NCBI GenBank assembly: GCA_007922225.1
Contig: ML679954.1
Location: 27,260,240-27,324,239 of the forward strand
Direction of reading: 5' to 3'
Length of the DNA: 64,000 bases
From: Emydura subglobosa
Taxonomy: Eukaryota; Chordata; Testudines; Chelidae
Below, piece by piece: positions 32,223 to 56,110 of this stretch; positions within the stretch are counted from its first letter, which is position 1; the number at the start of each line of letters is the position of its first letter. The position numbers were made by a program, and so were the translations under genes. The notes beneath the pieces are model-generated. The model ran no database searches. It was not told where the DNA came from and saw only the letters and a program-made list of their open reading frames with translations.

Positions 32223-33713
32223 TGTAGGCTGGTGGCACGGTCCAGCCAGCGGCATCGCGACCCTTCCTCGGGTCCAGGCTCCGAGGAAGGCCACAGCACC
32301 TTTTGCCGAGGGAAATAAGCTTCTTGTTTATGAGTCTGTAGCCCCGGCCCCCAGGCAGGGCGGGCTTCCCTGGCAATCTGTAGCCCCCTGGCCCTCATGG
32401 AGGGCAGGGCTGGTAACAGGTATGTGGCTCCCGGCCTTCCAACAGGTGGGATGGACCAGTAGTCTATTGCTCCCAGCCGTCAGACAGGGCGGGCAAGCAA
32501 GGGAGTCTTTAACCCCTGGCTCACAAGCGGGGCTGGAAAGTACTTAGGTCCTATGGCTCCCGGCCCTCAAACAGGGCGGGGTAGTGGTGAGTAGTCTGGC
32601 GTCCCCAGCCTGCAGGCAGGGCGGGGCAGGCAAGCAGTCTGTTGCCCCCGATCCTCAGGCTGGGCAGGGCTGGCAAAGGAGTCAGTAGCCCACAGCCCTC
32701 AAGCGGGCAGGGCACGTAAGCAGGTTGCAGCCCCCGGCCCTCAAGCCGGGCAGGGCTGGTGCATCAATCAATAGCCCCTGGCCCTCAAGCGGGCGGGGAA
32801 GGTATAGTTGTCTGTAGCCCCCAGCCTTACAGTCAGGTGGGTCTGGCAAAGCTCGAGGTCCTCTGGCCAGCAGTGTAGAGGATGCCAAGCACTCCCGGGG
32901 TGGTTAGGGAAGAGGGGAGGGGGACGCAGGCCCACCCGACTTCACTGCGTCCCAGCCCAAGGTCCTATCAGTGGCAAATGTTTTGCCACTATGTCAGCAG
33001 GGATCCAGCCACAACACGTTAACTGACTCAGTCACCCTCAGCCACTCTTTGGTCGGCTATCCCTGGGCTACTTCCTCCCACCCAATCCCCGGGTACCTGC
33101 ATCCACGTAGCTCCCTCTGGGTCGCTGGGGGAGGTGGCGAGCGGATGTCCTGTGAGTCCCTCATTGTCAGCTGGTGGCAGGTCCGGAAACTCCTCCGGGT
33201 TGTCCATGGAGGGTAGCTCCTCCAGGTCACAGGGCCCCAGGGGTTCCCCCAGTCCATGGGGTTCGGTGCACTCTGGTGGGTCCTTCACGTCAGGCAGCTC
33301 CTCCAGGTCAGGGCCGGTCTTAGGGGGTTTCTCCCACCCAGTGGGCTCGGGTAGCTGCTCCCAGCTCCCAGGGTCCAGCAGCCCTACCCAGTCACTAGGG
33401 TCTGTCAGCCCTTTCCAGTCACTCGGCAATTTGGGCAGGCTTTGGAGGCTCCGGTCGGCTGAGCAGTTGCGCTAAACAGCCGCAGGGCCTGGTTAGGTCT
33501 AGACTGCAGCCTCTGGGAAGACACATTTGCCTCCAGCGGCAGCTTCCCCCTGACTGAGCTGCTAGGCCTGCCTTTTATACTTCCTTCCCTGGCCCTGGCT
33601 CCACCCCTCTGCTTCCAGGTGGCTTGGCCTGCAGGGCCTGGTTCTGTCCAGCAGGGATGTCGCGACGCTTTCTCGAGCCCAGGCTCCAAGGAAGGCCACA
33701 GCGCCTTGTTACA
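32223..33713 (-). repeat. Element 1 3' LTR with internal minisatellite
   Basis: 1491 bp on the minus strand, from TGTAACAAGG (33713) to AGCCTACA (32223). A TATA box (gtataaaag, minus) lies at about 33571-33580. The middle holds a 133-codon open frame (33028-33429, minus) of low complexity with repeated L-E-E-L-P and D-P-x-x-W units, probably not a gene, followed by a GC-rich minisatellite. The outer ~60 bp match the 5' LTR. Confidence 0.9.
32330..32860. repeat. GC-rich minisatellite in the 3' LTR
   Basis: About ten diverged direct copies of a unit of roughly 50-57 bp, each built around agtctgtagcccccggccct then caagcgggcagggctgg. Confidence 0.85.
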
Positions 33714-33726
33714 CACCCTCTCCTCA
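33714..33726 (-). promoter_or_regulatory. Element 1 polypurine tract
   Basis: The minus strand reads gaggagagggtg immediately before the LTR TGTAACAAGG. Its position and purine content fit the primer for plus-strand DNA. Confidence 0.75.
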
Positions 33727-33774
33727 AGTCCAGCTCCCGGTCTCCTGGGCTGGCCTGCTCCCCTTCCCCTAAGC

Positions 33775-34006
33775 AGGACAAGGCATCTGCGTTCGCGTGC
33801 TCTTTTCTGGCCCAACGTTGGACCTTAAAGGCGAAGAGTTGTAGGGCGAGGTACCAGCGCATGATCCGGGCCTTAGTCTCCTTCATTTGGTGGAGCCAGC
33901 CGAGGGGTTTGTGGTCCGTGATTACCACAAACGGGCTGCCGAGGAGGTAATACCGAAGGGTGTCCAGTGCCCACTTCACGGCCAGCACCTCTTTCCTGAT
34001 GGTCAC
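33775..34006 (-). pseudogene. Element 1 RNase H
   Basis: E-V-L-A-V-K-W-A-L-D-T-L-R-Y-Y-L-L-G (about 33935-33992), then V-I-T-D-H-K-P-L-G-W-L-H and K-E-H-A-N-A-D-A-L-S (about 33780-33810). These are the standard gypsy RNase H blocks, including the catalytic E, T-D-H and the final A-D-A-L-S. It degrades RNA in the RNA/DNA hybrid. It is the last domain before the polypurine tract. Confidence 0.85.
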
Positions 34007-34239
34007 GTATTTCTGCTCTCAAGGAAATAGTTTGCAGCTAATATACAGAATGGGGTGCTCTTCTCCATCAAAATTCTAGGTGAGAATGGCCCCCAATCCG
34101 ACAGGCGAGGGGTCCGATTGAACCACGAAGGTGCGGTTGAAGTCAGGGCTGTAGAGAACAGGCTCGCGGCTTGTTTCTTCAAGGCTGTAAGAGCCTGATC
34201 ACACTCCGGGGTCCACCGGACTTGGAGTGGCTGGTCCTT

Positions 34240-35173
34240 CCTCAGCCGGTCTGTGAGGGACGTGGCAATGGTGGCAAAGTCTGGTACAAAGCGCCGATAG
34301 TATCCGGCCAACCCCACGAATTGCCTCACCTGCTTCTTGGTAGCTTGGTTTGCCAGTCTTGCAGAGCTTGTACCTTCCTGACCAGGGGCCTCAGAGTCCC
34401 CCGGCCTAGGGTTATACCCGAGGTAGGTGGTCTCCCGCTACCCTATGCGGTATTTTTGGGGGTTCGCTGTTAGCCCCGCATTTCGCAAAGTCCCCAGGAC
34501 GGCAGCCACCTGCTTCAGGTGGTCACTCCAGAGGTGCCTATATGACTACGTCATCCAGGTAGGTGGTGGCCTAGTTTACATGGGGGCCCAGGAGTTGGTC
34601 CATCAGCTGCTGGAAGGTCGCAGGTGCCCCATAAAATCCAAAAGGGATTCTTACAAATTGGTACAGCCCACTGGGGGTTGTGAACGCGGTCTTCTCCTTC
34701 GAGCTGTCATCCAGGGGGATTTGGCTATACCCCTTTTTGAAGTCAAGTGTGGTAAAGTATTGGGCTTCTCCAAGCTAATCGAGTAGTTCATCGATCCACG
34801 GCATGGGGTAGGCGTCGAACTTGGAGGTGATGTTGTTACGCCGACCGTTGATACAAAATCGACAGGACCCATCGAGTTTTGGGACCAGCACAATGGGGCT
34901 TCGCCATTTGCTGGCGGAAGGTTCTATCACCCCAAGTTTCAACATCACACAAACCTCCTCTTCTACTGCAGCCTGTAGATGGTGGGGGGGATGATCTTGC
35001 ACCGGTCCGAACCACCTCAGTGGGGCAAAACTGGATGGCATGGTACACCCGGTTGGTTTTTCCAGGGGTGGTGGTAAATGTGATGGCAAAAGTCTCCACC
35101 AACCCGTTTCGCCTGTTGCCTCTGGGCGTCTTATAGTTTGGCGCCCAACTGGAACTCCCTGGGGTCTTCCCAT
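34240..35173 (-). pseudogene. Element 1 reverse transcriptase
   Basis: It begins right after the integrase GPY/F module with no LTR between them. Linker and fingers: V-M-L-K-L-G-V-I-E-P-S, then SPIVLVPKLDGSCRFC (34850-34895), with N-G-R-R-N-N in place of the usual D-Y-R-x-L-N, and Y-P-M-P-W-I-D-E-L-L. The catalytic YLDD is at 34550-34561. The connection to RNase H is F-V-G-L-A-G-Y-Y-R-R-F-V-P (about 34280-34318). Motifs are of Ty3/gypsy type. Frames shift near 34775 and 34330. Confidence 0.85.
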
Positions 35174-35228
35174 TTGGATATCTGTGATCCCAGATCCAGA
35201 TCCGGCAGGTGAAGGTTGATGAACAGAC

Positions 35229-36290
35229 CCATGGCTTCAGCAGGTTAGTGTGGTACACCTGCTTCTTCTTCCACCGGTTGGGTTGTCTGACCTCGTAGTT
35301 TACCGGGCCGACCTGGCGAATGACCTTGTACGGCCCCTGCCATCGGGCAAGGAGTTTGGACTCGGCGGAGGGGAGTAGCACGAGGATCCGATCCCCTGGT
35401 TCAAAGGAGCGGGTGCGCACAGCCTGATTGTATGTCCAGGCCTGGGTGGCTTGGGCAGTTTGCAGCCTTTCCTGGGCTAGAGTCCCTGCCCGTTGAAGGT
35501 GCTTTCACAGGTCCAGGACATACTGTAGCAGCCCCTGCATGAGTGAAGGGGCCTGCTCCCATTACTCCCGCATTAGAACGAGGATCCCTCTGGGCTGTCG
35601 GCCATACATCAGTTCAAAAGGTGAGAACTGGGTAGAGGCCTGCAGAACTTACCAGAAGGCTAAGAGTAGGGGTGGGATCATCTGGTCCCACCTCCGCAGA
35701 TCCTCCGGGGGGAAATTCCGGAGCATGTGTTTCAGAGTCTAGTTAAACCTCTCGACCAGCCCATCAGTCTACGGGTGGTATATGGAGGTCTGTAGTTTCC
35801 TGATCCCGGGGACCTCACATACCTCCTGGAACAGCTGGGAGGTGAAATTGTTTCCCTGGTCTGTGAGAAGCTCTTTGGGTAGCCCCACCCTGGCGAAAAC
35901 CTTAACGAGCTACCCCATGATGGTTTGGGCGGTTGTGTTCTTCAAGGAGATCACCTCTGGGAAGCGAGTGGAGTAGTCCATTAGGATGAGGGAGTAGCAG
36001 TACCCGGCTACACTCCACTCCAGCAGTCCCACGAGGTTGATAGCCACCCTTTTGAAGGGTGTTCCGATCAGTGGGAGGGACACTAGAGGGGCCCACAGAA
36101 TCTCAGCTGGAGCTGCTAATTGACATGCCAGGCAGGAGGCACAGTAGTACCAGACTTCCTGGTATACCCTGGGCCAATAAAACCAGGCCAGTAGTCGGGC
36201 CAGCGTCTTGTCGAGGCCCAGGTGGCCCATGGCAGGAATATCGTGGGCCAGTCTCAGCACAGCCCTTCAATAGATGCAGGGCACGCCAAC
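35229..36290 (-). pseudogene. Element 1 integrase (lies upstream of RT)
   Basis: Zinc-binding head: AHDIPAMGH (about 36218-36244) then C-A-S-C (36129-36140), giving the H-H-C-C pattern. Catalytic core: the first aspartate is replaced by Asn in RVAINLVG (about 36037). The second remains in T-D-Q-G near 35857 and the glutamate in T-D-G-L-V-E-R-F near 35745-35760, with stop codons on both sides of that block. C-terminal GPY/F module: Q-G-P-Y-K-V-I-R-Q-V, ending Y-H-T-N-L-L-K-P-W at 35229. Integrase joins the cDNA ends to target DNA and makes the 5-bp duplication seen here. Loss of the first Asp alone would abolish catalysis. Confidence 0.85.
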
Positions 36291-36639
36291 TGGGCGTGGT
36301 GGGTCCGCGGCCGGGCATCCCGCTCCACATGGTATATTCGGTCGTGGTGAAGTTCAAACCATGGCCATTGGGTCGCCCGTTGGGGGTCGGTGGCCACCTC
36401 GTCCACTGCAGCCAGTTGGTCATAGGTGCGGCTGAGGGTGGGTTCTTCCTGCTAGTCCCTTCAGAAGTCCTCCCCCGGCTCCCTTGGGTTGGTCGGGTAC
36501 ATTCCTGCGGCAGACCCTCTTCTGCTGGGGTCCCCGTCTCTCCGGGGGGATCCAGGGGCGGGACCCAACCGCTCATCTACGGGGGGTGGCTCCTAGCCAT
36601 CTGGGCCCTCTCCCTCTGGGGTCCCCTCACCTGAGGCTC

Positions 36640-36930
36640 CTCAGCCTACCCTCTGGAGGACCCCTGCAAAGTCCAGCCAGTCCCGGCCCAAAATAACGGG
36701 GTACGGGAGATGGTGTGCGAGCCCCATGGGAAGCACCCGAGTGACCTGTCCAATGGTCAGGGGTAGCAAAAGTGTAGGATAGAATTTTAGATCCCCATGG
36801 ATACAGGCCAACCTGCCTGAGAACCCACCCATCCTTGGGGACCAGCCCCCTCATAATGAGGGTTTGGCCACACCCCGAGTCGACAAGAGCTTCCAGGTGT
36901 CGCCCCACAATGCTGATGGTAATTGTCACT
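36640..36930 (-). pseudogene. Element 1 aspartic protease
   Basis: The active-site motif is LVDSG (36873-36887), preceded by a beta-rich stretch (V-T-I-T-I-S-I-V-G). The second signature, VILGRDW, lies at about 36677-36697 in another frame. The enzyme would release mature Gag and Pol proteins. At least one frameshift separates the halves. It follows the zinc knuckle by about 40 codons, the usual gypsy arrangement. Confidence 0.78.
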
Positions 36931-36994
36931 TTCAGGGTAGTCGGGCCCTGGGCTTGCCCCACTCTGGCGTAGATCAGGCCGAAGGTGAAGTCCA

Positions 36995-37890
36995 TCGTTG
37001 GGCACTGGTGCCACAGGTGTCCCATTTGGCTGCATATAAAACAGGGGCCCGTGCTTCTGGAGGCCCTCCCGGGGCAGGCCATGAGGGTCCGGGCCAGTCA
37101 CCCCTGGGGCCCCAGGGATTCCACGGGTTGCGTGGGCCTGAGCCAACTACAGCCTGGTTCCTGGGTCTGATGGGGCTGTGTCATCCGTGAAGCTGGGTGC
37201 AGGGCCGTCACCCCAGAGCTCGTCCACCAGGGGCCAGTTGGAGCGGCCGGTCTCTCAACAGCCAAGAAGTCCTCCATCAGCTGTACGGCCCTGGCCAGAG
37301 TGGTGGGGCAATGCCTCATCACCCAAGTTTTGCCCTGGGGAGGCAGAATGTGTACGAATTGCTCTAGCACCACCTGCTCCGTCATGGCAGGTGCGGAGTG
37401 CTGCACTGGCTGGAACCATCGCCAGCAAACGTTCTTGAGCTCCAGCACCACCAAGGGTGGTATTCTCCCAGAACCAACTCTGGAAGGTCTCAGGGCTGAT
37501 GTCCAGAGCATCCAGAATGGCAGACTTCACGGCCTGATAATCGTGTGCTTTGTCATCGGCCAGGGCCCAGTAGGCCGCCTGGGGAACCCCCATCAGGTAG
37601 GGGGCCAGAAGGACTGCCCATTGGTCTGGGGCCCAGCCTGTGGCGGAGGCTACCCATTCGAAGGTGGTCAGGAAGGCCTCTGGGTCATAACTGGGTCCCA
37701 ACTTCGTGAGACATAGTTGGGGCGAGGTCGCTTGCGGGGATTGACCCCGGGGTTCATCTGGGCCTGCCAGTTTGGGCAGTAGGACCCCTAGCTGCTGTAC
37801 GTACTGTCCTGTTGCTGGGCCCCCAAGACCCTGGTCGGTCCACCACTTCATAAACTCGTTGAAGTCCATTGCCCGGCTGGTCACTGGCAT
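36995..37890 (-). pseudogene. Element 1 gag with SCAN-like segment and CCHC knuckle
   Basis: The start is taken as the ATG at 37890, 75 bases inside the LTR. The first 140 or so codons are open, with a capsid-like part (D-P-E-A-F-L-T-T-F-E, then P-Y-L-M-G near 37590). A frameshift near 37440-37480 leads into a SCAN-like part and then a second shift. The zinc knuckle CFICSQMGHLWHQC (about 37001-37043) keeps the C-x2-C-x4-H-x4-C pattern. Gag forms the particle and binds the RNA. Vertebrate SCAN domains are believed to derive from gag of Gmr1-like elements, which fits the domain order of this element. It is dead through frameshifts. Confidence 0.82.
37262..37500 (-). other. SCAN-like domain inside element 1 gag
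   Basis: ISPETFQSWFW (37500-37468) corresponds to the first SCAN helix. After a frameshift, V-C-W-R-W-F-Q-P (about 37411-37434), TEQVVLEQFVHILP (37343-37384), W-V-M-R-H-C-P and V-Q-L-M-E-D-F-L (to 37262) match the rest of the fold in order. SCAN domains of zinc-finger proteins dimerise through these helices; in gag the same fold is the C-terminal capsid domain. There are no downstream C2H2 fingers, so this is not a SCAN-ZNF gene. Confidence 0.78.
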
Positions 37891-37946
37891 TGAGGGGTCA
37901 ATGGATTATCCAAGCGGGCAGTCCCCCTTTTGTCAGGGGTTGGCTG

Positions 37947-37963
37947 CCTTCATTCTCCACCAC
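37947..37963 (-). promoter_or_regulatory. Element 1 primer-binding site (tentative)
   Basis: One to two bases inside the 5' LTR the minus strand reads TGGTGGAGAATG. The first nine bases equal the complement of an alanine tRNA 3' end (…TCTCCACCA), after which the match fails. Minus-strand DNA synthesis would start here. Confidence 0.4.
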
Positions 37964-37964
37964 A

Positions 37965-38251
37965 TGTAGGCTGGTGGCATGGTCCAGCCAGTGCCGTTGC
38001 GACCCTTCCCTGGGCTCAGGCCACAGGGCCTGGGTCAGGCCTAAACCGCAGCCTCTGGGAAGACAACGTCTGCCTCCGACAGCAGCTTCCTCCTGACTGA
38101 TCTGCTGGGCCTGACTTTTATACTTCCCTCCCTGGCCCTGGCTCTGCGCCTCTGCTTCTGTGTGAACCTGCCAGGCCTGGTTCTGTCCAGTGAGGGCGTC
38201 GCCACCCTTCCTTGGGTCAGGCTTCGAGGAAGGCCACAGCACCTTGTTACA
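37965..38251 (-). repeat. Element 1 5' LTR (internally shortened)
   Basis: 287 bp, starting TGTAACAAGG (38251) and ending CAGCCTACA (37965) on the minus strand. A TATA box (gtataaaag, minus) lies at about 38114-38123. Both ends match the 3' LTR, but roughly 1.2 kb of its middle, including the minisatellite, is absent. The join lies in the ccaggccctg / ggcctgagccc area near 38010-38030. Confidence 0.9.
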
Positions 38252-38256
38252 AGCAT

Positions 38257-39214
38257 TCTTTCTTCTCTGAGGACTATGAACATGGAAAGTCTCATGTTGT
38301 AATCCCAAATCATTTTGAGTTATCTGAGCACAAAGAGGCACTTGGATAGGTTCTTAAGTAGAGTGTGTGTGGGGGGAAATTTTCATGTTTGAAAAAAGTA
38401 ACTGAATATATTTCAAGACACCTTAGTTCCCCACCCAATTAAAAATGGAATCTGTCCTAAGAATTAACATGAGTCATGTCCATCAGCCTTTGAAAGATAT
38501 TTTGAGGACGAAAGTTAAAAACCACCAACCATAGGGAGGCTCAGTTGAAAGTGCTGCCAAGTTCCATAGCAATAGCATTGCTAGTAAACTCTTGTAATAA
38601 GAGAACACTCATGCAATGGAAGGGAAATCAGAAAAAAATAAGATGGGTGTGATTTGTTAAAAGATTAGGCACACAAATGTCTGCTGAACAAGCATGAACA
38701 ATTGCATGTTTAATTTGCACATCCAGTTACAGTCATTGTACATGGTAATTGAATAATTATGTATAAAACTAATTATGGTTATTTGCCTGCATAATTACTT
38801 AATTTGCACACAGTCATGATAATTAGGCACACAAATTAGTCACAATTGCATGCCTAATCTTATTCAAAATCAAGCCCGATGTATTAATTTCAAATTGTAC
38901 TTCTCCAACTTTGCTGAATTATGATTTTTACTACCGGTTTTGGATTTTATATATGTGCCATGGGCCAAGCTCTCTGCTGACCTCAGTGGAATTGCACAGG
39001 ATGTAAATCAGTGCTGAATCTGGCTCCATCTGTTAAAGAAGGGTTGTGAGGTATAAACCTGGCCAAGTAAAATTTCACTAGTTGGGAGAAATTGGGACAA
39101 CATGCAGATTTTGACTGGTTACAGCTTCTTTGAATGTAAAGTGAATGAATGAAATTTTGATTCAAGCCTCAGCAACTTGGGTTTGGGAACTAATAAGGGG
39201 GTAATTTAAATAAA
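38257..39214. other. Non-coding spacer
   Basis: AT-rich host-like sequence between gypsy elements 1 and 2. The motif ttaggcacacaaat occurs twice (38664 and 38823) around an AT-rich, partly self-complementary core, possibly an old MITE. Confidence 0.4.
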
Positions 39215-39440: not shown

Positions 39441-40217
39441 CCTCTAATAACTGTCCTACCTACAGGTATTGTAGGAGATTTTATTCAATATAGGCAATCA
39501 CAAATTTTGATAAGAAGTTCAATAAAAGCCGGGGGGATTTATCAGTAAAATTATGACCCTTCTATAACAATAGATGAATGGGTGCTTTTAATTAGAAGTT
39601 GGTACAATCTCCATTTGAAGAGGAAAATCTATGGAAGATCAAAACAATACAAATGCTGACTCATTTTCCTTGCTATAACTTTGTTGACTGCAATGGGGTT
39701 GGACTTAGATCAGCGGTAACTGAGAGGAGAATCTGGCTTCGCTTCTTGAAGTTATTGGATGGGCTGTGTGGGGAAGGCTAGTATGCTCACACCTATACCT
39801 AGCACTTGAATGAATGCCCAGTTAGTTGATGCTGGTGGAAATATAGGAGTTAAAACATTTTCTCCTGGATATATTTATTGTTAGTTATGTCCCTTAATTT
39901 TGCCTTGCCTAATGCACTTTAGAATGAAGTATAATTCTTGTAACTGCTTTAGTACTTGATATTAAACCTTATGTTAAGCAATCAAAATGATATGGCAGGA
40001 TGAACCAGAGAAGATGATCAAATATAGTGATGATGAGTTTGCATCTTTAAGGCATTCAGTTTGTACCCACCTGCCAGAGGCATTTTAGGACTAGAGTTGC
40101 CTTACTTTAGATTATAGATTACCAAAAAAATTATGAATGGGCAGCTAGTTTATTTTTTCATCTCTCATTCCTTTTTGTCGGTGTTTTAATTTTGCACATT
40201 TAATTATAAAATAAGTC

Positions 40218-41453
40218 TGTGACCCGTCCATGCCTAGAGTAGCCACCTGAAAATGCCAAAGTCAGGGCAGGCTGCAAACGGAGAGCAGATTCTCCCAACA
40301 CTGGTGGGTGACACTGAAGTCAGACTTCCCAACCAGCCACAAACAGTGCTTCTGATTCCCCACACTGGTTATCAAGAAGCTAAAATAAAAATATACACAG
40401 CCCCCTTTACTGCATTTCAGTCTCTGGTTCCCAATCAGCCCCTAGGTCCAGTAAAGAGATAAGTTATGTAAAAATCTCTGTTCTTTACCAAAAAGGTTCT
40501 CCTGACCCCAAAGGGTCAGCCACATTACCAGATCAATGTAAGTTTGGATCTTGCCGAAAATACCATGCTGACAGCCAATCCTTTAGTAACCAAAACTAAA
40601 GGTTTATTTTAAAAGGAAAGAAACAAACCAGAAGGGAATTGTTAAATGATTAAAGCAATCACATACATACAGATTATTGGAAAGTCCATATACATCAGGT
40701 TTCTAGTAGAAATGTGGAGTTTCAGTTCATCTATAACTGAAGCTGTGACTCAAAGGACTGAGACTCATCCGGTCCTTTGATTCACAGCTTCAGTTATAGA
40801 TGAATTGATCCAGAGGAAGGAAGACTAAATAGTCCATGTGCCAAGTTTGTTCAAATTTTCCCATGAGAATTACAGGGTGATTCCAAGCTGGTTTGCGATC
40901 CAAACTTTCCCTGACACGCTTGGACAGATTTGAGATAAAAGGATCAGTCCACTAGAGTTTTTTATAGATCCATGCAAGCTGATCGATACCTACTGTCAAG
41001 AAAGTATCTCTTTGAACAATTAATAGATGATTACTTGGGACTCTGAAGTATCATCTCCCATGTCCTGAGCTAGCTAGTAACTAGTTACTTTAGCATAAGG
41101 TCATTGGCCATTTACAAACCGTTCACAAGTGTTTACTACTTAAACTTCAAAGAGAAATACAAACAATAGTATTGTTATATTCAAAGTTCCATCTAAATTT
41201 TCATATATTCCTTTTGAACTCTTAATCAATAGAACAGTGACAGACAGGAAAGCAGTTTATCTACCTTGTAACCTCTAACAAGAGATATGTAAATAACATC
41301 AAATAACTATCAACAATACATTTGCATATCAAAGCTCTAGTCTACTTCTAAGGAATTACCTTCACTACCATTGTATTTTCCTATAATATACCTTGAAAGG
41401 TCAGAGTTGGGCCCTGCAACTTGCAAGTTGCTTGGCTGTTTTAGGCCGTCACA
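40218..41453 (-). repeat. Element 2 3' LTR
   Basis: 1236 bp on the minus strand from TGTGACGGCC (41453) to ACGGGTCACA (40218). TATA-like ctataaaaaac (minus) lies near 40960-40972 and a polyadenylation signal (aaaataaacc, minus) at about 40602-40611. A 33-bp hairpin lies between the two. Confidence 0.88.
40726..40804 (-). repeat. 33-bp hairpin in the R/U5 part of the element 2 LTR
   Basis: The arms 40726-40758 and 40772-40804 are complementary at 32 of 33 positions, with a 13-base loop. They lie about 160-240 bases downstream of the TATA-like box and upstream of the polyadenylation signal, so they would be transcribed and could fold in the RNA. Confidence 0.85.
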
Positions 41454-41464
41454 CCCCCAATGCG
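41454..41464 (-). promoter_or_regulatory. Element 2 polypurine tract
   Basis: The minus strand reads cattgggggtg directly before the LTR start TGTGACGG. It is short but correctly placed. Confidence 0.6.
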
Positions 41465-41506
41465 AGATCAGTGTAGAAGGGAGTAATCAGAGCTCCTAAA
41501 TACACC

Positions 41507-42539
41507 TCAAGGGCCAGCCAGTCTTGACACGGCATCAGCTAAAAGATTCTCTTTGCCCTTGATGTGAAATATGTTCATATCAAATTCCTGTAAGGCCAAA
41601 GTCCAATGGAGTAACCTAGAATTCGTTCCTTTGGCTTTGTGTAACCATACTAATGGAGCATGATCGCTGAACACAGTAAACTTCCTGTTATACAAATAGG
41701 GTTGAAGTTGCTTTACAGCCCAGACAATTGCATAGCTTTCTTTCTCTATAGTAACATAGTGTCATTCAGTGACAATACAAGCTCTTTAGATAAGGCTTCT
41801 TTTGTTCTTTGGAAACCCTGTTCACAGGCCTCAGTCCACTTTACCTTGTCTGGATTTCCTTTTTTGGTAAGGTCTGTTATGGGGGCTACGATGTCACTAA
41901 ACCCCTTTATAAACCTGCGATAATAATGGGCCAGCCCAATAAAGGATTGGACCTGCTTCTTTGTCTTAGGCTTAGGCCAGCCCTTTATGTCTTCTACTTT
42001 TAAAAGATCAGGGCGTACTAGACCACTGCCTACCCTGTGTCCCAGGTATGATACTTTTGCAGCTCCTAATATGCACTTGGAGACTTTGACAGTTAGGTTG
42101 GCCTCTCTGAACCTTTGTAACACAACTCTCATATGGTACAAGTGATCTCTCCAAGAATTGCTGAAAATAGCCAAGTCATCTATATAGGCTCTGGCAAAGG
42201 TTGTAACCCATCCAAAACCTCATTAATGAGCCTCATGAAGGTAGCTCTAGAATTTTTTAGTCCAAATGGCAATTGGCATTGGCAATTTGTCCAATGAATT
42301 CATATTGACCAGAATCTACTATGAAAGCACATTTTTCCTGGGCATCAGCGTCTAAGGGTATTTCCCAATATCCCCGAGTTAGATCTAGTGTGCTTATGAA
42401 TTTTGCACCCCCCCAACAGTTCCAATAAATCTTCTATGCAGGGTGTGGGGTATGGATCAGGTGGCATGATTGCATTCAGCTTTCTGTAATCTACACAAAA
42501 CTTCAAGGTTTTATCCTTCTTGGGCACCATTACAATGGG
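41507..42539 (-). pseudogene. Element 2 reverse transcriptase (main part) and RNase H
   Basis: It resumes after the solo LTR at the fingers block VPKKDKTLKFCVDYRKLN (about 42475-42530), then P-Y-P-T-P-C-I-E-D-L-L, P-F-G-L-K-N near 42250, and the catalytic YIDD at 42175-42186. V-S-Y-L-G-H-R-V-G and S-F-I-G-L-A-H-Y-Y-R-R-F-I follow. RNase H has F-S-D-H-A-P-L-V-W-L-H-K-A and G-K-E-N-L-L-A-D-A-V-S-R-L, ending at a stop at 41507. The frame breaks between 42345 and 42174 and near 41700-41746. All motifs are Ty3/gypsy type and better preserved than in element 1. Confidence 0.87.
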
Positions 42540-42543
42540 ATAA

Positions 42544-42650
42544 TGTTACACTTATGAAATAAACAACAGGATCTTATTCAGGGGATAAGGCAGTATACCA
42601 CGTTTATTATGAATACAGAAAATATTTGAAAAAGCAATTGCCTAACACAC

Positions 42651-42700
<50 letters not shown>

Positions 42701-43733
42701 CTGCAGGAGGGATATAATTACCAGCCTCTGTGCTGCTCGAGCTGAATCACTGGCCAGGTGACTCAGACACAAGGATGGAGCCAGGCACTGTCGGTCACGA
42801 AACGATGCTCCTTGGGGTTTGCAGAACAAGCCCAAAATCTAGGTTTCTTCACCCCATTTTTATACTTATACATCCCCATTCAGGTTATGGATCTTGCCAG
42901 GTCAGACAGTCTCCTTGTTTGATGTAATCGTCAATGACGTTTGATATTGCAAGTGTGACAGCTTTCCCATTCTTCTTTCATTCCTGTTTCACACTTTGTC
43001 TTGTTCCTGTCCTTGGGTGTTAACCCCAGAAAACAGGGGAGTTATCTTGATCTTCAGCCATCTGGGTTGTAAAAGTTCTTTAAACAAAAGCATCTTCTCT
43101 CCCTCCTGCCCTTGGAGACTGAGAACTATTACCTCAGCAATTACTTCCTCGCTGTCTTATCTCAGCAGACTCAGACTGCATTCACTCCTCATTCATACTT
43201 ACCAAAAATCATTACATTCTTATCCCATTACATTGGTACATTATCTTATACTTACTTACTAACATAATAAATCCTCATACCTACACCAATTTTAATACCA
43301 ATTTTATTAAAAGGAAATAAAAGAAATCTTATTTGCCCTCTCATTGCCCTATGATTTACAACATCAACCACATTCCTGATACTCACTGGGCACTAACCTT
43401 CACTTGTAAATTATCACAATTAGATTTCAGGATGTTCCCAAACATTCATACCTAGATGTTTACAAACAGGGCCCCAATGTGTCATAAATGTTAAATTCCA
43501 AAATGTTTAGGCAGGATGTGTCCCACTCATATGTTCAAGCAGTCAATTATCATAGTGCAGCCTGGGGTGGCATGAACAAACAATCAATGTGTCTGGAACA
43601 TCCCTATCTATAATGCCTAGTTTTGTCCCTTCTCAGTGTGAGGATTAACCCTTAAGTTTCAAATATGTATTCACGGTCCGGACCTGCTCTGGTTCAGGCC
43701 TACATCACAGTGCTCATAGTGCTGAGGCCTACA
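42544..43733 (-). mobile_element. Solo LTR nested in element 2 RT
   Basis: 1190 bp on the minus strand, starting TGTAGGCCTC (43733) and ending AGTGTAACA (42544). TATA-like gtataaaaatgg (minus) lies near 42855-42870 and a tcataataaacg polyadenylation signal near 42598-42612. The flanking tetramers are ATAA (42540-42543) and AGAA (43734-43737), a 4-bp duplication with one substitution. It separates the N-W-A-S block from the VPKKD block of the reverse transcriptase. A (CA)n run lies at 42655-42699. Confidence 0.75.
42655..42699. repeat. (CA)n microsatellite
   Basis: About 22 CA units inside the nested solo LTR. Confidence 0.95.
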
Positions 43734-44080
43734 AGAAGCCCAGGGATTGTTTGATTTAGTAATTACCCTCATTTCCAACATGCTTGCTACCTCCTCCTGG
43801 ATTTGTTTTTGCATTTCCCCCTTGGCCCGATATTCTCTGCTTGGCATTGGATGGAGTCCTGTGGTTTGAATGGAATGCACAATCTTGTCAGTTAAGAGAA
43901 TGCTTGCCTGTGGTGCTTTAACAGGGCTACCATCTCCTGTTTCTGGGCAAGATCCAAACCTTTCCCAAACGCAATGCTCTCCAGTGGAGTTTCTCCTTTG
44001 CTTTCTGCAGCAAAAGCAAAGGGACAAACAATGTTCCTTCATCAGCACAACAAATCATATTGACAGTTGCCTCTTCTTTC
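43734..44080 (-). pseudogene. Element 2 integrase-RT linker and RT N terminus
   Basis: Directly after the integrase GPY/F module comes E-S-K-G-E-T-P-L-E-S-I-A-F-G-K, a leucine/histidine-rich helix (V-A-L-L-K-H-H), then Q-I-Q-E-E-V-A-S-M-L-E-M-R-V-I and N-N-P-W-A-S. This is the segment that normally precedes the VPKKD block in gypsy reverse transcriptases. It is interrupted at 43734 by the solo LTR. One frameshift is visible near 43890. Confidence 0.8.
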
Positions 44081-45165
44081 ACAATAAACTTTCAGTCTGT
44101 TAGCATGAACCAGTTGCCTAGCTCCTCTTCCATGGGGCTTTCTGACATTTTAGGTAACTTCATTAATCCTTTCTACAACCTCATACGGTCTGTCTCAGAT
44201 ATCCTGCATTTTATTTTTCCTCACTGGAATTAGTACAAGCACCAGATCCCCAATTTCAAAAGCTCTTTCCTCAGCATGCTTGTCATACCAAGCCTTCTGA
44301 ACACCCTGACTTCTTTTAAGGTTCTGCTGAACCAGACCCATCATGTCTTGCAAGTTCTCTTTAAACTGTAACACATATTCCACCACTGGCTGTTCTGTCA
44401 CCTCTACATTACTCTCCCAGGAATCACGAATCAGATCCAGGGGTCCCCTGACCTGCTTCCTGTAAAGCAGCTCAAAAGGAGCAAACCCTATAGACTCTTG
44501 GGGTACACTCCTATATGCATACAGCAAATAAGGCAACAAGCCATCCCAGTCATTCCGGTGTCTGTCCACATATATCTTTAGCGTAGACTTCAATGTCCCA
44601 TTAAAATCTTTCTACCAAACCATTAGTCTCTGGATGGTAAGGGGCAGCTTTTAGATGATTTACCCCACACATTTCCCATAGCTGCTTAAATACAACTGAC
44701 ATAACATTGGCATCACAGTCTGACAAGATTTCCTTGGGAAAACCCACTTTGCTAAAAATAGTAAACAGAGTGGTGACCACTGTCTCAGCCGCAACTTTAG
44801 ATAAAGTTACAGCTTCAGGGTACCTGGTGGCAAAATCCATCAACACCAGAATATACTTTTTCCCATTTCTGGAAGGTTTAGGGAGCGGCCCCAAAATATC
44901 CACAGACACTCTGGCAAACACCTCCTCAATAATGGGCAAAGACTGTAGGGGTGCCCTTTTGGGACCTTCAAACTCTTGCGCTTCTGACACAAATCACAGC
45001 TTCTGCAGTAATTCCTCACTGTGTCACACATATGAGGCCATAGAAGTTTTGCTTCAGCCTGTCACAAGTTTTTTTCTATGCCCCGATGTCCTGCAAAGGG
45101 ACCATCATGAGCCAACTTTAATAACTCACTTCTATATCCCTCAGGTACCACAAGCTGCTTGCAGT
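44081..45165 (-). pseudogene. Element 2 integrase (lies upstream of RT)
   Basis: Zinc head: L-A-H-D-G-P-F-A-G-H-R-G near 45090-45125, then CRSCDLCQKRK near 44975-45010. Catalytic core: D in S-V-D-I-L-G-P (44900), D in L-S-D-C-D (44720) and E in N-G-L-V-E-R-F (44612). The second D and the E are 35 residues apart, the standard D,D35E spacing. The 44195-44593 frame covers L-L-P-Y-L-L-Y-A-Y-R and F-E-L-L-Y. The GPY/F module follows at about 44081-44199 with a stop just before it. The coding sequence begins at the junction with the inverted LTR end, so its first residues and all upstream pol are absent. Confidence 0.87.
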
Positions 45166-45372
45166 TTGGGAGCCAGAGAGTGAAATGCAGTAAAGGGGGC
45201 TGTGTATATTTTTATTTTAGCTTCTTGATAACCAGTGTGGGGAATCAGAAGCACTGTCTGTGGCTGGTTGGGAAGTCTGACTTCAGTGTCACCCACCAGT
45301 GTTGGGAGAATCTGCTCTCCGTTTGCAGCCTGCCCTGACCTTGGCATTTTCAGGTGGCATGGACGGGTCACA
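45166..45372 (+). repeat. Inverted LTR 3' end at the right border of element 2
   Basis: It reads in plus orientation and matches the reverse complement of 40218-40434 with four substitutions and one 10-bp deletion (tactctaggc, between two ggc words). It ends ACGGGTCACA, exactly at the AAGTC duplication. At its inner border pol and LTR share the near-identical words ttgggagccagagag and ttgggaaccagagac. Confidence 0.9.
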
Positions 45373-45406
45373 AAGTCAATGATAGAATATAATGCTGGTG
45401 GGTGGC

Positions 45407-45790
45407 TGTAACAGGATGGACTTGCCTCTACCTACTGTCTAGCCCACAAATGGCTTGGAAATCTTCTTCTGTTAAGATGCCTCATGCAATTTACAGTGTT
45501 CTTTTCTACCAACTTAATGGACTGCACAGCTTCTTTCCAACAGTAACACGTAACTGTCAGCTCCTTAGGCAAGAACAGGAGGAGTCACTTATGATTCTGA
45601 CTCTAAAAGCCTGCTTCTCTCTCTTCCCTCACCGCTTTCCTCACCCCCCCCCCCCGCGCCCCTTCATACTGGCTTCCTGTGCCTTTTGTACAGGAGCAGT
45701 TCTCAGTCAGTCCCCCAAACACACCTGACAAATAGGAAATACAGTGATCAGACTGCTAGCTCAGCAGCTGTTACCGAGCACTCCGTCACA
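45407..45790 (-). repeat. Element 3 3' LTR
   Basis: 384 bp on the minus strand, TGTGACGGAG (45790) to CCTGTTACA (45407). It aligns along its length with 48135-48551. It contains a C/G homopolymer near 45643-45655. Confidence 0.85.
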
Positions 45791-48134: not shown

Positions 48135-48551
48135 CGTGGCAGGATGGACTGTCCTATACCTTCCCTCTAGCCCACAAATAGCTTAGTTTCTTCTTCTGGT
48201 AAAAGATCTCATGCCATTTATTTACAGCATTCTTTTCCGCTACCTTTACAATCTATGCAGCCTTATCCCAACAGTAATATGGAGTCCCTAACTCCTGAGG
48301 CAAGAAGGGGAACTAACACTCACAGCTCTGATTCTACAAACGTATCCTCCTCTTTTCCTCCCATTTATACTGCCTTTCTGTGCCTTTCGTACCATCTGAG
48401 CTAATGAGTTAATTAGCCTTTAAAACCCTTCAGCTCGGCCCAGTCTCTCAATTGGGTGCAGTTCCCATAGTCAGGTGTGCTCTGGGTAACTAATTGGAAT
48501 TGCAGTGATCAGAGTTCTGGCTCCAGTGCTATGGCTCTGCACTCTGGCACA
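48135..48551 (-). repeat. Element 3 5' LTR
   Basis: 417 bp on the minus strand, from TGTGCCAGAG (48551) to CCTGCCACG (48135; the final CA has become CG). TATA-like agtataaatgg (minus) lies near 48365-48375. aaataaatgg near 48215-48224 may be the polyadenylation signal. Confidence 0.85.
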
Positions 48552-53399: not shown

Positions 53400-56110
53400 G
53401 CCTTCCTTCTCCATGTGTGGCCATGTCTTTTCACAACAAAGTCTTCCCATCTCTTTGGAGGTCAGCTGAGTGGTTGTTTCAATTCCCGTGGGTACCACTC
53501 GGCGACAGCTGCAGTCCATTGATTGTCAGTGAGCCTAGCTTTATGCCCAGCTCATCACATTTTATTGCATCTGCTTTCAGCAACAGCATCCTGCACTCCA
53601 TTGAGCAGTCTGATGACTTCATTGGGGATTCAGTCGCAGATTGAAATACCCAGAATCCTTCTCTCCATTGCCCTCTCTGTGATGGTCAGTTGTTGTTCCA
53701 CTATCTTCATCAGCGCCCATGTTTCGCTGCTGTACAGCTGGCAGTACTGTTGAGTTGAAGAGGTTGGTGCATGTTGCCTTATTGATTTTTCCTTGGAGGA
53801 CATCCTTGATAAAATTAAATGTGCACCAACCAGCTTCCTTTCTTTGTGAGAGTTCGCCTTCCTGGTCGTAGCACATATTAATTTCTTGGCCCAAGTAGAT
53901 GTATTGTTCAACTTCTTGTATTTGTTCTCCCTTAATTCTTATTGGGCTTTTGGCAGGGCATCAGACCACATAAATTTCATTTTGGAGCGGTTCATTTTCA
54001 GTCCGACATCACTGCTTTTTGTGTTGAGTTCTTGCAGAATTTTGTGTAGTTTGAGTGTATTCGGCAATCAATACGATACTGTCTGCAAATCTGAAATGAT
54101 TTAACTGCTGTCAGTTGACGGTCATTTCACCCTTCCAGTTCATCCGCCTCATTATAGAATCATAGAATATTAGAGTTGGAAGGGACCTCAGGAGGTCATC
54201 TAGTCCAACCCCCTGTTCAAAGCAGGACCAACCCCAGCTAAATCATCCCATCCAGGGCTTTGTCAAGCCGCAGCTTAAAAACCTCTAAAGATGGAGATTC
54301 CACCACCTCCCTAGGTAACCCATTCCAGTGCTTCACCACCCTCCTAGTGAAAAACTTTTTCCTAATGTCCAACCTAGACCTCCCCCACTGCAACTTGAGA
54401 CCGTTGCTCCTTGTTCTGTCATCTACCACCACTGAGAACAGCCTAGCTCCATCCTCCCTGGAACCCCCTTTCAGGTAGTTAAAGGCTGCTATCAAATCCC
54501 CCCCTCATTCTTCTCTTCTGCAGACTAAACAAGCCTAGTTCCCTCAGCCTCTCCTCATAAGTCTTGTGCTTCAGCCCCCTAATCATTTTTGTTGCCCTCC
54601 GCTGGACTCTCTCCAACTTGTCCACATCCTTTTTGTGTTGGGGGGCCCAAAACTGGACACAGTACTCCAAATGCATCCACACCAATGCCGAATAGAGGGG
54701 AATAATCACTTCCCGCGATCTGCTGGCAATGCTCCTACTAATGCAGCCCAATATGCTATTAGCCTTCTTGGCAACCAGGCCACACTGCTGACTCATATCC
54801 AGCTTCTTATCCACTGTAACCCCCAGGTCCTTTTCTGCAGAACTGCTGCCTAGCTCGTCGATCCCCAGTCTGTAGCTGTGCATGGGATTCTTCCGTCCTA
54901 AGTGCAGGACTCTGCACTTGTCCTTGTTGAACCTCATCAGATTTCTTTTGGCCCAATCCTCCAGTTTGTTTAGGTCCTTCTGTATCCTATCCCTACCTTC
55001 CAGGGTATCTATCACTCCCCCCAGCTTAGTGTCATCTGCAAACTTGCTGGGGGTGCAATCTACCCCATCCTCCAGATCATTGATGAAGATGTTGAACAAA
55101 ACCGGCCCCAGGACCGACCCCTGGGGCACTCCGCTTGTGACCGGCTGCCAGCTAGACATGGAGCCATTGATCACTACTCGTTGAGCCCTATGCTCTAGCC
55201 AGTTCTCTATCCATTTTATAGTCCATTCATCCAACCCATTCATCCAACCCATACAACTTGCTGATAAGAATACTGTGAGAGACCGTATCAAAAGCTTTGC
55301 TAAAGTCAAGGTATATCACATCCACTACTTTCCCCACATCCACAGAGCCAGTCAGCCAGTCATCATTTCAAGGCATGCTGTGAAGAGTTTCAATGAAATT
55401 GTGTCTCCTTCCTTCACACCTTTTTTGACTGGGATGTGGAGGGGAGTGTCAAACAAAGTTATATCCATAGTACAGTCAGAGTTTGCTTCCTATAATCATT
55501 TGATGTAATTTATGCTGATGCCCTGCTCTGCAATAGCTTTCAGCACTGCATTGATCTCAACGCTGTCAAATGCTTTTTCATAGTCGATGAAGGCAATGCA
55601 TAAAGGGAATTTGTATTCCCTTGAGTGCTCCAATAGTTGCCGTATAGTGAAGATATGGTCTATTGTTCTGCAATTCCTTCAAAAACCTGCCTGCTTTCTT
55701 GGTTGCTGCTCATCCAGTCTTTGTGAGAGTCAGTTTGTTATTATTTTAGTGAATAGCTTGTAGACTTGTAAGAGCAGGCAAATTGGACAATAGTTCTTTA
55801 GATCTTCATGGTCGCCCTTCTTGTGCAGCAAAATGGTGTTAGACTCCTTCCAGCTAGATGGTATCTTTTGCATTTCCAAGTAGCTGCTAAACCTCTGAGA
55901 AAGGATTTCCCAGAGGTCTTGGCCTCCAGCTCTTATCATTTTGGTTGTCAACAAGTCTTTTCCTTGGGCTTTTCCTTCCTTCATTTGGTGAACTGCATGT
56001 CGAACTTCACTAATGAGGACTGGGAATATGCGCTTATTGGTCTGTTAAAGGTTGTTGAACAACAAGGACAGAAAAGCAGTAATAAATCGAAGAGGGATGG
56101 AAGCGGTCTG
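53400..56110 (-). mobile_element. RTE-like LINE, split by a CR1 insertion
   Basis: Two minus-strand parts, 56110-55363 and 54152-53400, join into one RTE-type reverse transcriptase. Part one: M-K-E-G-K-A-Q-G-K-D, then KIPSSWKESNTILLHKKGD, N-Y-C-P-I-C-L-L, Y-K-L-F-T-K-I-I-T-N, a V-K-K-G-V box and L-F-T-A-C-L-E-M at the break. Part two resumes at R-R-M-N-W-K-G, then H-F-R-F-A-D near 54085 (the second catalytic Asp has become Ser), I-Y-L-G-Q-E-I-N-M-C-Y-D-Q-E-G-E-L, E-R-A-M-E-R-R-I-L-G-I-S and a tail W-T-A-A-V-A-E-W-Y-P-R-E to 53405. Several stops and frameshifts. The endonuclease is missing, so the copy is 5'-truncated. Confidence 0.82.
54153..55362 (-). mobile_element. CR1 LINE, 5'-truncated, nested in the RTE-like element
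   Basis: Reverse-transcriptase C-terminal half: [12 protein letters not shown] near 55300, [20 protein letters not shown] (about 55070-55130), the catalytic F-A-D-D-T-K near 55040, then [33 protein letters not shown], and in the 54238-54495 frame [15 protein letters not shown]. The 3' end is the short agaatcatagaat repeat usual in CR1. One long frame (54479-55309) remains open over 276 codons, with a frameshift near 54490. A tandem copy of ccattcatccaac near 55220-55250 disturbs the frame upstream. Confidence 0.93.

Follow-up and report, generated by a model that had tools for sequence, protein, structure and literature searches.

Long terminal repeat (LTR) elements are expected to be bordered by a U3 end on one side and a U5 end on the other. 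An insertion in the turtle Emydura subglobosa raises the question of how the U5 end of one LTR can come to stand at both borders. The element, assigned here to the Gmr1-like Ty3/gypsy group, occupies positions 40218-45372 of a 64,000 nt stretch of contig ML679954.1 (the window), to which all positions refer. The most probable origin, at roughly 0.68, is a single integration of an aberrant Gmr1-like cDNA in which pol had been joined to an inverted U5 piece at a short word and which was inserted via two U5 ends.

Insertion borders, inverted U5 copy and junction word

The features that define the borders and the internal junction are the following.

40213-40217, no strand: target-site duplication (TSD) AAGTC, left copy
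40218-41453, minus strand: complete LTR of 1236 bp, TGTGACGG...GGGTCACA; the 3' LTR of the element, its U5 end forming the left border
40218-40419, minus strand: 3' segment of the LTR, of which the right border carries an inverted copy; 3' of the only AATAAA of the LTR
40421-40439, minus strand: U5 side of the junction word
45161-45179, no strand: junction word joining pol to the inverted U5 piece, 16/19 identical to U5
45180-45372, plus strand: inverted LTR 3' (U5) end that forms the right border, with 10 bp fewer than the left copy
45373-45377, no strand: TSD AAGTC, right copy

AAGTC adjoins both termini of the element exactly, and with the base composition of the window a 5/5 match has a chance probability of 0.0011. 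At both borders the duplication abuts a TG...CA terminus (AAGTC with TGTGAC/GTCACA), and in place of the expected pair of U3 and U5 borders the U5 end ...GGGTCACA is found twice. The similarity between the two ends halts at the LTR terminus on both sides; the outer flanks are not inverted copies of each other and have only the direct AAGTC in common. An earlier interpretation, made without database searches and here called the sequence-only reading, had described AAGTC duplications that delimit the insertion exactly, a left border formed by the 3' end of a minus-strand LTR, and a right border formed by the same 3' end in inverted orientation, and all three descriptions are upheld. The ends of the LTR form an exact 6-bp inverted repeat (TGTGAC/GTCACA); according to PMC1180852, retroviral LTR ends generally carry imperfect inverted repeats.

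On the minus strand the full LTR starts with TGTGACGG at 41453, and directly internal to it stands a run of five G, such as a polypurine tract would show. The only AATAAA lies 391 bp from the LTR end and the repeated 3' part, being 3' of it, would fall inside U5. The insertion thus contains a partial LTR inverted relative to its own full LTR. When the left end was aligned with the inverted right end, as had been suggested, the two U5 copies up to the junction matched save for two A/G transitions (40260 and 40342) over 192 ungapped sites and one 10-bp gap. A third aligned mismatch, at 40420, sits at the junction itself, and base 45180 already departs from U5. The similarity had been given as about 207 bp with four substitutions and one 10-bp deletion; the gap is retained, the substitutions are reduced to two, and the rest lie at or in the junction word. 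A repeat search returned the inverted arms as 40242-40439 and 45161-45358 (198 nt, 97% complementary).

Gag, protease, the primer binding site (PBS) and the 5' LTR are absent from the copy, and a search of the window for a second copy of the LTR gave no match elsewhere longer than 29 bp or with an E value below 0.21, in agreement with the earlier statement that gag, protease and a true 5' LTR are gone. A remnant 5' LTR was sought to the right of the element because CCGTCACA recurs at 45783, and this candidate was rejected since the adjoining sequence is not LTR-like.

Within the LTR, at 40722-40808, there is also a near-perfect 37-bp inverted repeat with a 13-bp loop (-58.1 kcal/mol, z -10.8). 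It sits between a TATA-like word and the AATAAA, perhaps in R, and may be either a feature of the family or a separate fold-back duplication.

The element has a single internal junction, located at the word that reads TCTCTGGCTCCCAAACTGC in pol and TCTCTGGTTCCCAATCAGC in U5 (16/19 identical). The junction was earlier placed at a near-identical 15-base word; the word stands and its extent is corrected. When 2 million pol/LTR position pairs were drawn at random, a fraction of 3e-6 reached 16/19, and the match at this fixed register is not due to chance. Under 1/-2 scoring 28 peaks reach 9 or more, and the word ties with three others for second place; under 1/-1 scoring it ties with two others for fourth place among 132 peaks. 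A perfect 14-base word common to pol and the LTR exists elsewhere in the element. Taking the present left LTR as the reference for U5, the bases of the word that differ from U5 are probably pol sequence retained up to the switch, because they also read in the frame of the zinc-binding domain: from 45172 the word is in the frame that enters this integrase domain at 45148, four codons past the word. Retention of pol bases up to that point is as expected if the 3' end of the minus strand was the primer.

Identity and decay of the element

Four pol fragments were found between the LTR and the junction, all on the minus strand.

41507-41761, minus strand: RNase H fragment (PF17917), open frame
41746-42219, minus strand: reverse transcriptase (RT) fragment (PF00078), open frame
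44601-44993, minus strand: integrase core fragment (PF00665), open frame
44972-45148, minus strand: integrase zinc-binding domain (PF17921), in two pieces split by one in-frame stop

The piece of PF17921 on the side of the junction scores 24.2 bits, just below the Pfam cut-off of 25.5, and the second piece scores 32.5. Read from the junction along the minus strand, the order is PF17921, PF00665 (45148-44601), PF00078 (42219-41746), PF17917 (41761-41507) and LTR. Integrase upstream of RT, a Copia-like order in a gypsy-type pol, is given as the mark of Gmr1-like elements in passages of three papers (PMC3587641, PMC8220671, PMC2774666). The element is classified by this domain order, together with similarity, as a Gmr1-like Ty3/gypsy element and not a retrovirus, because integrase precedes RT. 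A rearranged pol, which the same order might suggest, was rejected since the order is normal for Gmr1-like elements. The earlier label "provirus" is thereby corrected as regards a retroviral identity.

In protein searches the integrase fragment matched best a protein of Chelydra serpentina (57% identity over 94%) and the RT fragment one of Natator depressus (71% identity over 89%); the nearest named relatives are thus turtle proteins, and none of the best matches is named Gmr1. The interior was also checked against a DNA transposon with terminal inverted repeats (TIR) and a transposase of its own, and it is retrotransposon pol. A scan of viral contigs with the integrase core fragment gave 18 stretches that matched by pattern, none of them a relative, and scanning the window against Rfam and for tRNAs produced no matches.

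The RT is interrupted by an insertion of about 1.2 kb (about 42540-43735) that includes a 44-bp AC run (42655-42698). Two 5-bp TSD candidates were seen for this insertion, neither convincing. The RT sequence that borders it (42526-42543) has an 18-nt inverted match of 83% inside the insert at 43220-43237.

Pol is dead in this copy. With the gap of the nested insertion left out, the homology-supported part of pol holds six frame changes and, by inspection, one in-frame stop, that of the zinc-binding domain. The two changes between the U5 copies give a divergence with a 95% range of 0.0012 to 0.037 per site (195 sites). The supported lesions agree with the age of the U5 pair (P 0.61 for frame changes and 0.42 for stops), and these breaks do not demand an age above it. 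This clock test is weak: it uses manual counts and assumes that a substitution creates a stop with probability 0.045 and that the coding sequence measures 1.7 kb, where the supported segments come nearer to 2.0 kb.

Origin of the two U5 ends

An integrated cDNA with U5 at both ends is the best reading of the locus because one abnormal step accounts for the single junction as well as for the TSD and the two exact termini. From these observed features and the word we infer the order of events and the strand that switched. Minus-strand synthesis would have started from the 3' LTR and proceeded through RT and integrase toward gag, until the 3' end, just past the word, paired with the word in an antisense U5. 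The antisense template may have been the molecule's own 5' end or another strong-stop DNA. Strong-stop DNA carries U5 at its 5' end, and the copied piece, being 3' of the only AATAAA, would lie in U5, the part that strong-stop DNA carries. Copying of the U5 strand as far as its 5' end, which is the LTR terminus, would then have produced a molecule with U5 at both ends and without gag, protease, PBS or 5' LTR; microhomology joining of two broken cDNA fragments could have given the same product. In the last step integrase would have taken both U5 termini as attachment ends, resulting in a normal insertion with a 5-bp stagger. Concerted two-ended insertion with mimics of the U5 end has been reported in vitro for the integrase of mouse mammary tumour virus (MMTV), a retroviral and not a Ty3/gypsy enzyme (PMC9410886), and by analogy a Ty3/gypsy integrase may be capable of the same.

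Several points weigh against this origin. It rests on one locus and one copy, completion of the second strand at the right end needs an extra priming step that is not observed, and words of equal strength occur elsewhere between pol and the LTR. The 6-bp inverted repeat at the LTR ends allows a later rearrangement to produce the same border. The homology-supported alignments hold up to two stops, partly beyond frame changes, the count of one being the author's reading. When the linker between integrase and RT is counted, which is supported by no homolog, there are four stops in all and the U5 pair looks younger than pol (P 0.019); an older pol would be in keeping with a template RNA that was already defective or with an inverted copy that arose later.

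Such a later origin, in which a normal insertion was rebuilt after integration by a replication-type double template switch, is a serious competitor that we nevertheless consider rather unlikely. Replication would have left pol at the word to copy the inverted U5, and at the end of U5, within the common GTCACA, it would have switched to the U3 end of the right LTR; gag and the 5' LTR would have been deleted and the original TSD kept. Both junctions would then have microhomology, and the older appearance of pol with the linker stops included points the same way. The sequence-only reading had dismissed a later inversion on the ground that its breakpoint would have to fall exactly at the border between LTR and TSD. 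That argument is wrong, as a switch anywhere in the 6-bp inverted repeat restores the border. The rearrangement is held less likely because it requires two linked junctions, one of them within a fixed 6-bp stretch at the very end of U5, and the homology-supported lesions of pol fit the age of the U5 pair. The earlier proposal of an abnormal cDNA formed by a template switch, with both U5 ends used, remains the best reading, without its retroviral identity and without the argument from an exact breakpoint.

Two insertions in opposite orientation may also have been fused by a deletion that joined the pol of one to the U5 of the other, AAGTC being coincidental. In its favour, complexes formed by recombination after insertion outnumber template-switching ones by 20 to 2 in about 7 Mb of Triticeae sequence (PMC1950507, Table 1). 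For the present element such a fusion is very improbable, since a 5/5 match beside both exact termini has a chance of about 0.001 and the flanks contain no LTR remnant above chance. An assembly or library artefact, with the inverted end made by a fold-back chimera, is supported by no observation and is hardly credible, as it should run on into an inverted left flank where AAGTC and unrelated sequence are found from the LTR terminus on, and the copies already differ by two substitutions and the 10-bp gap. Autointegration, which gives circles and joins an LTR terminus to an internal site, was rejected because here the internal junction falls within the LTR, about 193 bp from its end.

If the two-ended U5 integration is true, the locus is a natural in vivo test in which a Ty3/gypsy-type integrase completed a two-ended insertion with two U5 ends, the U3 end being dispensable, and it means that an LTR element can gain terminal inverted repeats in one step. 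It is improbable that molecules with two U5 ends are a recurrent product of the family and that the integrase inserts any U5-flanked DNA in the manner of a DNA transposon; were this so, the genome would hold several such insertions, each with its own TSD and an unrelated interior, and they might form a link leading from LTR to TIR elements. The element gives the impression of a neat accident, for which a relative is known in human, and not of a new system, and function is not expected of a single dead copy.

Related elements and surrounding sequence

The human relative is HERV-K124 (chr4:161579938-161582439), in which the 5' LTR is described as full and the internal and 3' LTRs as truncated and inverted (PMC3625200). 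The two loci are alike in that a full LTR and a truncated inverted LTR occur together in one LTR-retroelement locus. HERV-K124 belongs to HERV-K and in its published description contains three LTRs and two internal regions, whereas the turtle element combines a single full LTR with one inverted piece, contains one junction, and carries an exact TSD next to its two U5 ends. In the passage on its origin the describers speculate about LTR inversion and template switching, the mechanism being in their words unresolved (PMC3625200).

No integrated Ty3/gypsy element with two U5 ends was found among the titles and opening parts of abstracts that the literature searches listed, and absence from print is not claimed. 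Inverted partial LTRs are already known from human HERV-K; as far as the searches reach, what is new is a Gmr1-like element bordered exactly by two U5 ends. A human element related to endogenous retroviruses, which reportedly "resembles a DNA transposon" according to the title of Hughes and Coffin 2002, may be closer to the turtle case, the comparison being by title alone. That work is cited by the describers of HERV-K124 for a mechanism of LTR inversion, and probably concerns an LTR element with ends like inverted repeats.

The template-switching complexes of cereals are abnormal LTR elements within intact TSDs (PMC1950507), and the turtle element resembles them in that template switching before integration is inferred from intact TSDs around an abnormal element. 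As presented in that paper's account of them, the cereal complexes differ in having a normal outer LTR pair, three LTRs and two internal regions, with no inverted LTR described (PMC1950507). Inversions are likewise reported among proviruses of human immunodeficiency virus type 1 (HIV-1), one alone and one with a deletion of >1 kb (1.3% each), which works out at 2/78 after removal of clonal duplicates; two U5 termini are not described in the passages concerned (PMC9278108). The turtle copy shares integrase upstream of RT with Gmr1-like Ty3/gypsy elements as characterized in the passages on domain order (PMC3587641, PMC8220671, PMC2774666) and, unlike them, is without a normal direct LTR pair, gag and protease.

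Other repeats and retroelements surround the insertion. The region 33000-38400 has dense open frames, with an integrase C-terminal domain at 34836-35504 (minus strand) and a 238-bp direct repeat at 33479-33713 and 38020-38251 (82%), and is perhaps another old LTR element 2 kb to the left of the one with two U5 ends. Another retroelement is represented by a 278-aa open frame with a reverse transcriptase domain (PF00078) at 54479-55315 on the minus strand. A repeat at 45412-45506, which starts about 35 bp to the right of the TSD, recurs as a 78% copy at 48140-48237. Positions 32619-32826 hold a G+C-rich, degenerate tandem array with units of 43/86 bp.

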